Source: an uncultured Oscillospiraceae bacterium (GTDB taxonomy: Bacteria > Bacillota > Clostridia > Oscillospirales > Oscillospiraceae). Taken from it: a stretch of 64,000 nt of DNA. The stretch covers positions 1 to 64,000 of the forward strand of contig CANQTO010000005.1 in assembly GCA_947626785.1 (NCBI GenBank), read 5' to 3'. The notes under the pieces are model-generated. The model searched no databases. It saw nothing but the letters and a program-made list of their open reading frames with translations, and was not told the DNA's origin. The position numbers and the translations under genes were made by a program. Of this stretch, positions 1 through 51,439 are shown in pieces. Numbering within the stretch: position 1 is the first letter of the stretch; every line of letters starts with the position of its first letter.

Positions 1-11
1 CCAAAAAAGGA

Positions 12-51
12 GAGAGTTACCAAGGTCTTCCTTGGCAACTCTCTTCTTTTT
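12..51 (+). terminator. Intrinsic terminator of an off-window plus-strand transcript
   Basis: A 14-base stem with one mismatch (left arm 12-25, right arm 30-43) and a 4-base loop is followed by a T-rich run at 44-51. This is a typical Rho-independent terminator reading rightwards, so a gene or operon probably ends just left of the window. Confidence 0.75.
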
Positions 52-56
52 TTCAG

Positions 57-234
57 GGACTTTTTTCACAGCCCCTTCTGCGCCACTTTTTTCAGAAGGG
101 CTTGCCCTTCTGAAAAAACTCGCTACGCTCGGCAAAAGCCCGGTAAACCGGGCGTTTTGCTGGCGCGATCCAAACGCGAGGCGGGCCTTGCCCCCTCGCG
201 CACCCCCGCTGCTCACTCGTTTTTCATACGCAGC
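57..234 (+). repeat. Dispersed structured intergenic repeat, copy A
   Basis: This non-coding stretch reappears in inverted orientation at 49989-50162. The best-matching core is 83-234. It holds several hairpins: a palindrome centred near 103 (CAGAAGGGC arms), one at about 135-160 (GCCCGG...CCGGGC inside CAAAA...TTTTG), and a GC-rich one around 175-200. In the second hairpin one G-C pair of copy A is an A-T pair in copy B, so the stem is kept. An open frame of 68 codons spans it, but the other copy does not keep it. It could be a mobile MITE-like or REP-like element or a conserved 3'-end RNA structure. Confidence 0.8.
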
Positions 235-254
235 ATAGGGTTTGTCCACAGTTG

Positions 255-302: not shown

Positions 303-2027
303 TTAAAATACTACGTTCATATCCACATAGCCGTTGATGCCGTCGATGAGGCCGCTGTCGGTGAACTGCCACATGTCGTAGCGGCCGCCGAAGTTGGGCA
401 GGGCGTTGTCCAGAGTATAGCTGGCAAGCCAAATGCTGTACTGGGAGATGCTGTTGTAGTCCAGGTTATTCTTCATGAAGTACTCCCCGGTGTAGACCCC
501 CGCCCGGTAGCCGCTGTTGCGGATGGTCTCGCAGAAGGCCCGGATGATCTCGCTGCGCTCGGCGGTGCTGAGGTTATCCGCCCGGCCCTCGGGCCGGATG
601 CCGGAGTACTCGGTGTCAAAGAAGACCGGGTAGTCCAGCCCCACGCCGTTGAGGGTCTGGAGGGCCACGCTTGCCTCCTCCACCGCCTCCTGGGGGGTGA
701 TGGCCGTGGAGTAGAAATAAGCCCCCACCTTCAGCCCGGCGTTTTTGGCTTTGGTGAAGTATTCCACCGTCCGGTAGTCGTCATACAGGACGCCCGACTG
801 CCAGGTGCGCCCGCCCACACGGATGATGGCAAAGTCGATGCCCTGGGCCTTGACCGCCTGCCAGTTGATGTCCCCGTTATAATAGGACACGTCGATGCCC
901 ACAGAACTGGCCCGCACGCCGTAGGCGTCGAAATAATAGACCCGGCCGTCGATCTTCTTCAGGCCCTTCACCGGGTTGCCGGTGGCGTCGTAATAGTACA
1001 TGCTGCCGTTGATCTCCCGCCAGCCCATCTCCACGGGCTGCTCGCTCATAAGGGGGACCGCGGTGATATCATACTCTGCGACGGGGGTGTTGTCCTCGTT
1101 AAAGAGCTCCACCGCGTTGACCACCTCGCCCTCCTGGCGCAGGCCGTAATAGACCCCCTGGCCCTCGTCCACCAGCTGCACGTCGCTGACCTCGTCCCGG
1201 TCCCGGTAGTACAGGTAGTTGGCCTCGTCGGTGTGGAAGGTATAGGTATAGGTCTGGTAGCCCCGGGAATCCAGCACCGGCTGCTGCTGGGGTACAAAGC
1301 CGCTGCCGGCATAGGGGTCCTCCGGCGTGGTGATCTCCTCGGCCACGGTCTCCGTGGGCGCGGTGTTCTCGTCCGGGGTCTTCACTTCGTCCTCCGGCAC
1401 CTGGGCCACGTCCAGGACCTCCACGTACTCGTCGATATCCTCGATCTGCTCATAGACCAGCTCGCCCAGCACCTGGCAGTTGATGGCCTCGGCCGGCTGG
1501 TAGCCCTCGTGGGCGTTCATGGTGACCCAGTAGTTGCCGGGCTCCAGCTTCACCAGATAGCAGCTGCCTTCGGTGTCGCTATCGTAGGTGTAGGTCTGGC
1601 CGTTTGGGAAGGTCACGCTCAGGCTGAAGACTTCCCCGGTGACCGGCTGGCCGGCCTCGTTGTAGACGGTGATATACAGATCCCGGTCGCTGGAGCTGGC
1701 CCGCATGACGGTCTTGATCTCCTGGGCCCCGGCAGAGGGCTCCGTGGAGGGCGCCGCCGAAGAGGCTGGGACAGCAGTAGACGCCGCCGGGGGCAGCGCG
1801 GAGGGGGGCGGCGCCACAATGACGTTCTGGGCCGGCGCAGCTTCCGGGGCGGCCGCCTGGGCGGGCTCCCGCCCGTAAGAGAACAGAGCGGAGATGGCCG
1901 GTGCCACGATCACGGCCGCGATCAGCAGCGCCGCGATGGGCGCGCCGATGATAATGACTTTCTCATATTTGGAGTCGCTGATCAGGCTCCAAAGCTTTTT
2001 CAGGAAGGCTTGCAGTTTTTCTTTCAT
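303..2027 (-). CDS. Membrane-anchored GH25 lysozyme with cell-wall binding repeat
   Basis: This is a predicted peptidoglycan muramidase held on the outer face of the membrane. From the N-terminus it has a short cytoplasmic segment, one membrane helix (about 24-49), a Pro/Ala/Ser linker (about 53-105), an Ig/SpaA-like beta domain (about 110-190), an acidic linker, a choline-binding-like repeat (WREINGSMYYYD..., about 340-372) and a GH25 domain (about 378-574). GH25 signatures are GIDVSYYNGDINW with the first acidic residue, DYPVFFDTEYSG with the catalytic acidic pair, and DMWQFTDSG near the end. An AAGGGA site precedes the ATG. It is monocistronic, with its own promoter and a hairpin behind it. 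The family call is secure. Its role in wall turnover or spore or surface remodelling is inferred. Confidence 0.9.
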   Translation of the reverse strand: MKEKLQAFLKKLWSLISDSKYEKVIIIGAPIAALLIAAVIVAPAISALFSYGREPAQAAAPEAAPAQNVIVAPPPSALPPAASTAVPASSAAPSTEPSAGAQEIKTVMRASSSDRDLYITVYNEAGQPVTGEVFSLSVTFPNGQTYTYDSDTEGSCYLVKLEPGNYWVTMNAHEGYQPAEAINCQVLGELVYEQIEDIDEYVEVLDVAQVPEDEVKTPDENTAPTETVAEEITTPEDPYAGSGFVPQQQPVLDSRGYQTYTYTFHTDEANYLYYRDRDEVSDVQLVDEGQGVYYGLRQEGEVVNAVELFNEDNTPVAEYDITAVPLMSEQPVEMGWREINGSMYYYDATGNPVKGLKKIDGRVYYFDAYGVRASSVGIDVSYYNGDINWQAVKAQGIDFAIIRVGGRTWQSGVLYDDYRTVEYFTKAKNAGLKVGAYFYSTAITPQEAVEEASVALQTLNGVGLDYPVFFDTEYSGIRPEGRADNLSTAERSEIIRAFCETIRNSGYRAGVYTGEYFMKNNLDYNSISQYSIWLASYTLDNALPNFGGRYDMWQFTDSGLIDGINGYVDMNVVF

Positions 2028-48889: not shown

Positions 48890-49882
48890 ATGGCGACGAT
48901 GGACGATATTGCCCGGCGTCTGGGCGTCTCCAAGGGGACCGTGTCCAAGGCGCTCAGCGGCGCGGCGGACGTGAGCGAAACAATGCGAAAATCCGTGGTG
49001 GAGACCGCCGTGGAGATCGGCTATTCCCGCATCGCCCGCGGCGCCTCCGGAAAACGCCTGTGCGTGTTCGTCAACAACATGGCCTATGAAAAGCCGGACG
49101 ACTTCGGCTGGGATATCATCACGGGCTTTCGCAAGATGGCGGAGCCCACGGACTACCAGGTGGATATCATCCCCTTCAACGAGCAGATGCAGAAGGAGTC
49201 CAGGTACGATGAGTTCATGCTCCGCCACAACTATCTGGGGGCGGTGTTTTTGGGCCTGACCCTGCTGGACCCCTGGATGAAGGATTTCCAGAGCTGTACC
49301 ACCCCCGCCGTGCTGTACGACAACCATGTCCAGTCCAACCCCGCCGTCACCCACCTGGGGATCGACAACGACGAGGGCATGGAGATGGCGGTGGCCCGGC
49401 TGGTGGAGCTGGGGCACCGGAAGATCGGCTATCTGAGCAGCGCCCTGGGCTCCTATGTCTATCAGGCCCGGTACGCCTCCTTCTTCCACGCCCTGCGGCA
49501 GTTCAAGCTGGACGCCCACCAGTACATGGCGGGCTACGCCTACCGGAGCTCCGACTGTCTGGCCAAGCACCTGCCCCGGCTGCTGGACAAGGGCTGCACG
49601 GCGGTGATCTGCAGCCACGATCTGCTGGCCCATACCCTGCTGATCCACTGTGCGGAGCTGGGCCTGCGGGTGCCGGAGGATCTGAGCGTGGTGGGCATCG
49701 ACGATCTGCCCCTGTGCCGGTACACCTCTCCCCCGCTGACCACCATCCGGCAGGACCGGACCCAGCTGGGCAAGAGCGCGTTCTACGCCCTCTCCAGCCT
49801 GATCGAGCACGTGCCCATCAGTACGCTCCTGCTCCACGCGGAGCTGATCGAGCGGGCCTCCACCGGCCCCGCGCCCGTCTGA
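48890..49882 (+). CDS. LacI-family repressor of the maltodextrin genes
   Basis: A 330-residue LacI/MalR-type regulator. The N-terminal helix-turn-helix MATMDDIARRLGVSKGTVSK and hinge helix are followed by a periplasmic-binding-like sugar domain with VFLGLTLLDPW, LGIDNDEGMEMAVARLVELGHRKIGYLS and VVGIDDLPLCRYTSPPLTTI. It is divergent from malEFG and probably represses both promoters until a maltodextrin or maltose binds. No strong ribosome site is seen (ATCGAGGTGTTCACGC has GAGGTG at long spacing). Confidence 0.9.
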   Translation: MATMDDIARRLGVSKGTVSKALSGAADVSETMRKSVVETAVEIGYSRIARGASGKRLCVFVNNMAYEKPDDFGWDIITGFRKMAEPTDYQVDIIPFNEQMQKESRYDEFMLRHNYLGAVFLGLTLLDPWMKDFQSCTTPAVLYDNHVQSNPAVTHLGIDNDEGMEMAVARLVELGHRKIGYLSSALGSYVYQARYASFFHALRQFKLDAHQYMAGYAYRSSDCLAKHLPRLLDKGCTAVICSHDLLAHTLLIHCAELGLRVPEDLSVVGIDDLPLCRYTSPPLTTIRQDRTQLGKSAFYALSSLIEHVPISTLLLHAELIERASTGPAPV

Positions 49883-49926
49883 CAGGACCATATCACAGAA
49901 GGGGCCCGTAGAAAAACGGCCCAAAG

Positions 49927-49967
49927 AGCAACACCGAGGACTAACTCCATTAGTCCTCGGTGTTGCT
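49927..49967 (+). repeat. 41-base hairpin repeat, left copy
   Basis: A 17-base stem (AGCAACACCGAGGACTA and its complement) with loop ACTCCAT. An identical 41-base sequence in the same orientation stands at 50186-50226. The two bracket the dispersed element. Confidence 0.85.
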
Positions 49968-49988
49968 GAGACTGTCAAAAAACTTAAA

Positions 49989-50162
49989 GCTGCGCAGGAA
50001 AGCGAGTGAGCAGCGGGGGAGCGCGAGGGGGCAAGGCCCGCCTCGTGTTTGATCACCGCCAGCAAAACGCCCGAAAATTCGGGCTTTTGCCGAGCTTAGC
50101 GAGTTTTTTCAGAAGGGCTTGCCCTTCTGAAAAAAGTGGCGGCTTAGCGTGCAAAAAAGTCC
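49989..50162 (-). repeat. Dispersed structured intergenic repeat, copy B
   Basis: The inverted counterpart of 57-234. The reverse complement of 49989-50139 aligns along its whole length with 83-234, most bases identical and only small length differences. The CAGAAGGGC palindrome, the GCCCG...CGGGC stem and the GC-rich stem are all preserved. No gene is visible in 49883-50252; it is a repeat island between lacI and a two-component operon. Confidence 0.8.
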
Positions 50163-50185
50163 AAAAGGACTTTTTTGACACGCTG

Positions 50186-50226
50186 AGCAACACCGAGGAC
50201 TAACTCCATTAGTCCTCGGTGTTGCT
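50186..50226 (+). terminator. 41-base hairpin repeat, right copy, with T-run
   Basis: Identical to 49927-49967 but followed by TTTTT, so this copy can act as an intrinsic terminator for rightward transcription from the lacI gene. Confidence 0.8.
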
Positions 50227-50377: not shown

Positions 50378-51439
50378 TTAGCTCTGCCGCTCCGGCAGCG
50401 TGACCGTAAAGGTAGTGATCCCGCCCTCGCTGCTGACCGACACACGCCCGTTGTGCAGCTCCACCACTTTTTTGACGATGGCAAGGCCGATGCCGTTCCC
50501 CTCAGAGGAGTGGGATTCGTCCGCCTGATAGAACTTGTTGAAGACTCTCTCCAGACAGTCCGCCGGGATGTCTTTTCCGTTATTGGAGATGGCGACGCTG
50601 GTCTCCCGCTCGCCCTCGGCGATCTCCACCCGGATCCTCCCGCCGGGCTCGGAGAATTTCACGGCGTTGTCCAGCAGATTGAGCCATACCTGCTTCAGCA
50701 GTTCCTCATTGGCGTAGATCAGGTGCTCGCCGAAATCGATATCCATCTCCAGCTCCTTCTGGGTCCATTTGTCCTCCAGGACCAGGATCGCGCCCCGGAT
50801 CTGCTCCGAGAGGTTGAATTTGGAGACATTGGTCAGGATGGTCTGGTTTTCCACCTTGGTCAGGTTCAGCACGTTGATCGCCATGGAGGACAGGCGCAGG
50901 GACTCCTCCTCGATCACCGCCAGGTACTCCTGCTCTTCCTCCTCCGTCAGATTGCCGCGGCGCAGGAGCTTGGCAAAGCCGGCGATAGAGACGATGGGGG
51001 TCTTGAACTCGTGGGAGAAATTGTTGATGAAATCCGTCCGCAAAACCTCCGTGTGCTCCAGCTCCTCGGCGGCCCGGTTGAAGCTCCTCTCGATCTCCTG
51101 AAAGGCCGGCAGCTCCCCGATGGGCCGGCCGAACGCCAGCCGCGCCCGAAAGTCCCCCCTGGACAGCCGGTCGAGCTTGTCGATGACCCGGTTGAAGGGC
51201 TTCAGGTAGATCTTGCTGGCGGGCAGCGCCAGCAGGAAGCCGGTCCCCGTGCTGATCAGCAGCAGGAAAAGGAGGATGTCGCTGATCCCGGGCTGCTCCT
51301 CAGCGGAGCCGAGCACGCCGAATCTCACCAGGAGATAGAGGATGGCGATAGCCAGCACGATGGCCACGGTGATGATGACAAATACAAAGACCGACAGGAG
51401 CAGGGTGAGCGTAAATCGTGGATGTTTGTCTCTTTTCAT
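50378..51439 (-). CDS. Sensor histidine kinase
   Basis: A 353-residue kinase with two membrane helices (about 11-38 and 50-68) separated by a very short outer loop, a HAMP linker (about 68-125), HisKA with NNFSHEFKTPIVSIAG (phospho-acceptor His about residue 144) and a HATPase domain with LLDNAVKFSEPGG and GNGIGLAIVKKVVELH. The short loop suggests sensing within the membrane, for example of lipid state or a partner protein. Its ATG overlaps the response-regulator stop by 4 bases (ATGA). Confidence 0.92.
   Translation of the reverse strand: MKRDKHPRFTLTLLLSVFVFVIITVAIVLAIAILYLLVRFGVLGSAEEQPGISDILLFLLLISTGTGFLLALPASKIYLKPFNRVIDKLDRLSRGDFRARLAFGRPIGELPAFQEIERSFNRAAEELEHTEVLRTDFINNFSHEFKTPIVSIAGFAKLLRRGNLTEEEEQEYLAVIEEESLRLSSMAINVLNLTKVENQTILTNVSKFNLSEQIRGAILVLEDKWTQKELEMDIDFGEHLIYANEELLKQVWLNLLDNAVKFSEPGGRIRVEIAEGERETSVAISNNGKDIPADCLERVFNKFYQADESHSSEGNGIGLAIVKKVVELHNGRVSVSSEGGITTFTVTLPERQS

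Follow-up and report, generated by a model that had tools for sequence, protein, structure and literature searches.

IS1272, a staphylococcal member of the IS1182 family, inserts at inverted repeats, whatever their sequence, and takes their place (PMC5678879), and insertions of IS1272/TnSha1 are often found at terminators (PMC4923244). The model drawn for this process includes an alternative, pathway b of Fig. 13, in which the 3′ ends of the element join at the 5′ feet of the stem-loop and the whole stem-loop is duplicated (PMC5678879). Here we describe a family of short structured repeats from an uncultured Oscillospiraceae bacterium that carry the footprint of pathway b. The repeat is very probably a MITE-like non-autonomous transposable element that is moved in trans by IS1182-family (DDE) transposases; its identity as a MITE-like element with IS1182-family ends is well supported by sequence comparison.

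The original prediction concerned two copies of a repeat in the window (the whole stretch of DNA that was analysed, 64,000 nucleotides), placed at 57–234 (copy A) and 49989–50162 (copy B). Both copies are present and opposite in orientation, with the copy A arm at 81–223 being 88% complementary to the copy B arm at 49999–50141 over 143 nt; their ends required correction, to approximately 76–254 for copy A and to 49968–50184 for copy B. The base-pair change described for one stem was borne out, GCCCGG/CCGGGC in copy A corresponding to GCCCGA/TCGGGC in copy B. Copy A is a plus-strand remnant (about 76–254), the 5′ side of which is cut by an insertion sequence (IS) end at 1–75; the contig breaks inside this IS end, which abuts copy A at the place expected for the first hairpin, P1. 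Copy B is complete, sits in the gap between convergent genes for a LacI-type regulator and a histidine kinase, and lies between two 42-nt terminator hairpins, each complete and the two identical in sequence. The parts of the two loci are as follows.

1–75, minus strand: IS1182-type left end, GGGGCTGTGAAAAAAGTCCC followed by an internal hairpin; aligned to the IS1182-family left end at L111
76–254, plus strand: copy A, truncated at the 5′ side, P1 missing; delimited by sequence comparison of copies
80–85, plus strand: 5′ strand of P2, which closes the three-way junction and pairs with 161–166; 6 of 6 pairs changed on both sides
87–118, plus strand: P3 hairpin, TTTTTTCAGAAGGGC/GCCCTTCTGAAAAAA; 15 of 15 pairs changed on both sides
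132–160, plus strand: P4 hairpin, GCAAAAGCCCGG/CCGGGCGTTTTGC, the stem of the original prediction; terminator-like on the plus strand (site at 138–153); 12 of 12 pairs changed on both sides
161–166, plus strand: 3′ strand of P2, from covariation
175–214, plus strand: P5 hairpin (175–200) and conserved CACCCCCGCTGCTC tail; greatest sequence conservation within the element
241–254, plus strand: 3′ terminal inverted repeat, TTTGTCCACAGTTG; the same end is found at many other places
255–287, unstranded: terminator hairpin, AGACCCCGG...CCGGGGTCT, adjoining the 3′ end of copy A; read directly
303–2027, minus strand: glycosyl hydrolase family 25 gene (PF01183), 3′ end towards copy A
48890–49882, plus strand: LacI-type regulator gene (PF00356, PF13377), ending before copy B
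49926–49967, unstranded: terminator hairpin of 42 nt, duplicate 1; repeat family D10, 100% identity to 50185–50226
49968–50184, minus strand: copy B, complete, 217 nt, with the P1 5′ terminal inverted repeat hairpin (50146–50184), the P2–P4 three-way junction, P5, tail and 3′ terminal inverted repeat
50185–50226, unstranded: terminator hairpin of 42 nt, duplicate 2; flank alignment score 42
50378–51439, minus strand: sensor histidine kinase gene (PF02518, PF00512), ending towards copy B

The observation as a whole was confirmed and is stronger than first stated. The repeat forms a family and not just two copies. BLAST returned 45 pieces in the source genome (2.75 Mb, 98 contigs), which correspond to 20 near-whole copies (L001–L020) and three copies with internal insertions (L021/L025, L022/L024 and L023), and a covariance model built from 18 cores gave 25 matches. 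With this model the element was found in 54 of 102 genomes of the genus and, in an order-wide sample of 295 genomes from 149 genera, only in the source genome; few candidates were scored per genome in the order-wide search, so this absence elsewhere is not strict. Pattern matches elsewhere fall in records of uncultured Oscillospiraceae and other Clostridia, several of them from animal guts. One site (L004 and L036) is common to two species, and the P3 hairpins there differ by paired changes. No Rfam model matched the window at its gathering score, and the weak matches in four tested loci, all far below gathering scores, were rejected as identifications. A phage origin was considered and set aside: comparison with phage records yielded a single 38-nt match, in an unannotated 4.7-kb phage record, and viral contigs searched with one IS left end returned nothing.

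Other repeats accompany the family. A second structured repeat family in the source genome (for example, L062 at G000:C58:1180-1400, L045 and L063) has the same 3′ end, TTTGTCTACAGTCTGA, and other hairpins (CAAATGCGACCC...GGGCTCGCATTTG and GTTTTTGAGGCGGCAAAGCTGCCTCAAAAAC); it gave 41 BLAST matches in this genome, several of which lie between duplicated terminators. The P3 hairpin of one first-family copy, L098, resembles a hairpin of the second family (AATCAAACCCGCTTACGCTGGGCTTTGATT), possibly reflecting exchange between the two. A third hairpin-rich module (GGCGTCAGAAC...GACGAGG) is present inside copies of both families (L022, L023, L060, L061, L065 and L074), as if the elements nest in one another. 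At L048 (approximately 76–119), a very short element of about 42 nt, hardly more than both ends (CAGCTTGCAGACAAAGTTCTTTTGGGTTTGTCTACAGTCTG), adjoins an IS1182-type IS end. The same sequence (ATCGGGTAGGAGGGGGTGGCTAACCCCC...), which resembles the end of a group II intron, breaks the 3′ end of the copies L007 and L013, at contig ends.

In the folded core of the element, the closing helix P2 and the two hairpins that it encloses, P3 and P4, make up a three-way junction; a further hairpin, P5, comes after it. In A4, an alignment fitted to the covariance model (92 distinct rows, including the antisense matches L011:1608-1737 and L034:534-641), 39 of 43 pairs are changed on both sides, and 96.4% of cells pair, compared with 44–51% when the partner is slid by 1 to 3 columns. 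The counts of cells changed on both sides, which are not independent events because the copies share ancestry and modules, were 655 in A4 against a shuffle mean of 188 and 51 in the sequence-only alignment A3 (18 rows) against a shuffle mean of 14.3, in each case reached by 0 of 500 shuffles; the number of further pair types in A3 was reached in 39 of 500. RNAalifold recovered 13 pairs only from the mixed alignment A2, a result of the misalignment of P3/P4 between the two architectural types by MAFFT, and a type-1 alignment and the covariance model were therefore used instead. P5 and CCCCGCTGCTC are highly conserved in sequence. Modules have been exchanged: all four P3 × P4 combinations (two types each) occur among the 21 of 23 copies of the source genome that could be typed.

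That structure is kept beyond a single compensatory change is thus strongly supported by the larger alignment, in which the earlier change is one of many; further copies and further covariation both exist, contrary to the outcome named in advance as refuting. The interpretation placed on that change held in part. Paired structure is confirmed, but the change cannot be read as a single selective event, nor do we count each paired change as one, because modules are exchanged between copies. The structural reading also missed mobility, as the copies appear to arise by transposition into terminators.

When all copies are placed side by side, the 5′ end reads CAGCTTGTAGACAAAGTCC or CAGCGTGTCAAAAAAGTCC and leads on to P1, a palindrome in which the same end recurs in reverse, and the 3′ end reads GTTTGTCTACAGTCTG or GTTTTTTGACAGTCTC. 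The whole element is about 217 nt long, with imperfect terminal inverted repeats (5′ CAGCTTGTAGACAAA or CAGCGTGTCAAAAAA; complement of the 3′ end CAGACTGTAGACAAA or GAGACTGTCAAAAAA). The flanks are duplicated in 38 of 83 testable copies, compared with 2 of 2000 mismatched flank pairs (local alignment of left against right flank, score of at least 16; null pairs taken from different copies; testable copies being the 97 matches minus identical copies and those with short flanks). Nearly all duplicated stretches contain a single complete hairpin; their lengths run from 20 to 47 nt, and they vary between sites. The 16-nt duplicate at L033 is not a convincing hairpin. The other 45 of the 83 have no scored duplication, which may reflect age or another mode of insertion. 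Of 85 copies, 44 have a perfect stem of at least 8 pairs in the 50 nt next to their left side; on the right side the proportion is 44 of 91, and among control windows it is 5 of 508. The adjacency to terminators noted originally is thus borne out. Two low-scoring antisense matches (the same L011 and L034 stretches) were left out of the duplication, adjacency and G–U tests, leaving 97 rows, 90 of them distinct. Gene orientation around 54 copies, as judged by the longest frame, was unreliable in this GC-rich DNA, in which antisense frames win, and was not used. The loop of the terminator duplicated at L032 is exactly inverted in one duplicate relative to the other (TTTCGCAA / TTGCGAAA), which is a trace of hairpin-mediated inversion.

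We also searched the 101 other genomes of the genus for empty sites corresponding to copy B and to L008. Flanking genes were found and no base-exact empty site, because in G124 and G018 the two sides of copy B fall on separate contigs (L209, from G018, gave no anchor) and because gene-end hairpins turn over between species, differing at orthologous ends. The element core is absent from the examined stretch in all 13 L008-flank orthologs inspected (L222–L234) and in L208; L223 has a TGTAGACAAA stretch beside its hairpin.

Transposase genes of the IS1182 family (NF033551) were matched in 26 of 61 genomes of the genus, in 9 of them over the cut-off. A complete IS1182-family element in G016 (L131) starts with CAGCTTGTCAAAAAACTT (the CAGCTTGTCAAAAAA end), ends with ...TTCTTTGACAGGCTG, and is bounded on both sides by a 32-nt terminator hairpin, the two copies being identical; the transposase that it encodes exceeds the NF033551 cut-off and carries PF13751/PF01609/PF05598. 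The left ends of other IS1182-family elements (CAGCTTGTCAAAAAA at L105, CAGACTGTAGACAAA at L115 and L132) each follow directly after a hairpin. In the element at L103, CAGCCTGTCGAAAAA forms one end and the complement of CAGCTTGTAGAAAAA the other, the end that reads CAGCTTGTAGAAAAA being directly beside a hairpin; both of its ends are readable and it lies between two different hairpins without a duplication, so not every element is flanked by one. Contig ends truncate most of the remaining IS copies, which leaves L131 and L103 as the elements on which duplication could be checked. The terminal inverted repeats of the MITE match these IS1182-family ends of the genus (CAGCTTGTCAAAAAA, CAGACTGTAGACAAA and CAGCTTGTAGAAAAA); other IS1182-family elements of the genus (L104, L106, L109 and L129) have different ends, of the TGTCTCAAAA type. 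In the window itself, positions 1–75 align to the IS1182-family left end at L111 with a score of 99 (shuffled maximum, 51), and the L111 transposase is over the NF033551 cut-off, with PF13751/PF05598. The IS end that replaces the P1 hairpin of copy A is again a case of a hairpin as target. One IS1182-family element in G067 (L118), possibly an intermediate between IS and MITE, has an internally deleted transposase and lies beside other elements whose ends are of the same kind; near-identical GGCGACCAAAGGTCGCC hairpins adjoin all of them.

In the assembly of the source genome, no IS1182-family transposase was found (NF033551, 0 of 1), as would be expected if the mover were another transposase or recombinase with the same preference. 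We consider such another mover very improbable, given that the ends are common to IS1182-family elements of the genus, one of which has the same target duplication, and that the IS1182-type end breaks contigs of the source genome (the sequence at 1–75 recurs at the ends of other contigs, L009 and L048), so that the assembly probably lacks a multicopy IS. It is unlikely, too, that the elements act mainly as terminators or insulators working in both directions at the ends of operons and that this service is what retains them. Their location at gene ends, the terminator-like site in P4 of both copies and the strand symmetry of pairing described below would fit such a role, but the duplicating insertion already leaves a terminator on either side, the T-tracts are short, and the orthologous gene ends examined for one copy lack the element, which is hence dispensable there.

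Whether the fold is kept as RNA or as DNA bears on the remaining alternatives. If the plus strand were selected as RNA, G–U pairs would be tolerated and A–C mismatches would not. The acceptor and T stems of tRNAs from the same genome follow this expectation, with 26 G–U against 2 A–C in 300 cells (25 distinct of 30 tRNA loci, stems located by at least 9 of 12 Watson–Crick pairs), whereas P2–P4 have 23 G–U against 37 A–C in 2668 cells. As G–U is no better tolerated than A–C in P2–P4, pairing there is kept symmetrically for both strands, and the scarcity of G–U pairs, which are nearly absent, speaks against a simple gene for a single-stranded RNA. We judge it improbable that the repeats are a functional non-coding RNA family dispersed by transposition, with the three-way junction and P5 selected as plus-strand RNA. 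Covariation is present and strong in all four helices, P5 and CCCCGCTGCTC are highly conserved, copy B has an RNA fold z of −8.0, and P5 does favour G–U over A–C (32 against 9 in 892 cells, though 29 of the 32 lie at the outermost and innermost pairs); however, the G–U tolerance expected of the transcribed strand failed in P2–P4, copy B folds equally extremely as DNA (z of about −8), a sigma-70-like promoter was found in neither copy, and no Rfam family reached its gathering score in the window or the four loci. The strand symmetry suggests a strand-symmetric constraint or arm-to-arm copying, not ordinary RNA, and fits selection on a DNA cruciform, selection on both transcripts or correction between arms. 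There is a real possibility that the covariation is mostly mutational, with palindrome arms corrected by template switching, modules exchanged and little selection on the fold: intermediates changed on a single side are nearly absent (columns 18/46 hold 55 U–A, 34 C–G, 0 U–G and 0 C–A), all four P3 × P4 module combinations coexist in one genome, P3 loops TT and AA occur on the same stem, and the loop of the duplicated terminator at L032 is inverted between its copies. Such correction sits less easily with P2, which covaries even though some 75 nt, including two hairpins, separate its arms, or with an architecture that is kept across types having little P3 sequence in common.

We tentatively propose, at slightly below an even chance, that in this genus the transposases of the IS1182 family act in a structure-dependent way, transposing at the 5′ feet of cruciforms and duplicating the entire terminator, and that a large population of passengers (two or more families, some 60 copies in a single genome) has evolved as folded DNA under strand-symmetric cruciform selection, harmless at gene ends. 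On the MITE-like account itself, which we hold to be very probable, insertion takes place at an intrinsic terminator hairpin, with the extruded cruciform possibly being what the transposase sees, and repair would copy the whole hairpin to leave one on each side. With the whole hairpin duplicated, the gene keeps its terminator and the insertion does little harm; such entry into gene ends without terminator removal could explain dozens of copies per genome. The interior (P1, the three-way junction P2–P4, and P5) would be maintained as paired DNA, a compact palindromic cargo that may serve transposase handling or two-way transcription insulation, and the hairpins may evolve through substitutions in pairs, copying from arm to arm and swapping of modules among copies. 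More generally, covariation, which is usually taken as proof of RNA, can also mark folded DNA, and the comparison of G–U with A–C, which separates the two, is applicable to other repeat families.

Several described systems share part of this combination. Conserved folding is known for bcr1, and ISfinder-type tables give IS1182 elements variable direct repeats of up to about 60 bp, so whole-hairpin duplication may have been seen before; among open-licence papers, we found neither a description of the element nor an observed duplication of a whole terminator by IS1182-family elements. Similar to bcr1–bcr18 of the Bacillus cereus group, which are described in PMC6542083 as repeats of 100–400 bp with many copies per genome and features of mobile elements, the family is short and numerous; mobility of the bcr elements is tied there to a TTTAT motif, whereas the ends, target and IS partner are different here. 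TTTAT repeats were not found at the ends of our elements, which are terminal inverted repeats, commonly beside hairpins. Classical prokaryotic MITEs such as RUP and QMITE2 are likewise short, with terminal inverted repeats, target duplication, stable folds and no transposase (PMC10969869), but the target duplications given there are short (7–9 bp for QMITE2), in contrast to the entire hairpins, of varying length, that are duplicated here. Palindromic extragenic DNA also acts as a landing site for IS elements in the case of REP palindromes (PMC1525189); there the palindrome is a repeated sequence, whereas the targets here are unrelated terminators. There is also a likeness to IS1272/TnSha1, in which the target is again a hairpin, often a gene terminator, without a common target sequence; in PMC5678879 and PMC4923244, however, IS1272 replaces or deletes the hairpin without duplication, whereas 38 of 83 copies of the present element have flanking duplications, nearly always of a complete hairpin. 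The family thereby offers many natural examples of the outcome drawn beside the observed one in the published model, a hairpin recognized by its shape and duplicated whole. What sets these elements apart is the combination of IS1182-family ends, hairpin targets, whole-terminator duplication and a covarying, strand-symmetric fold.
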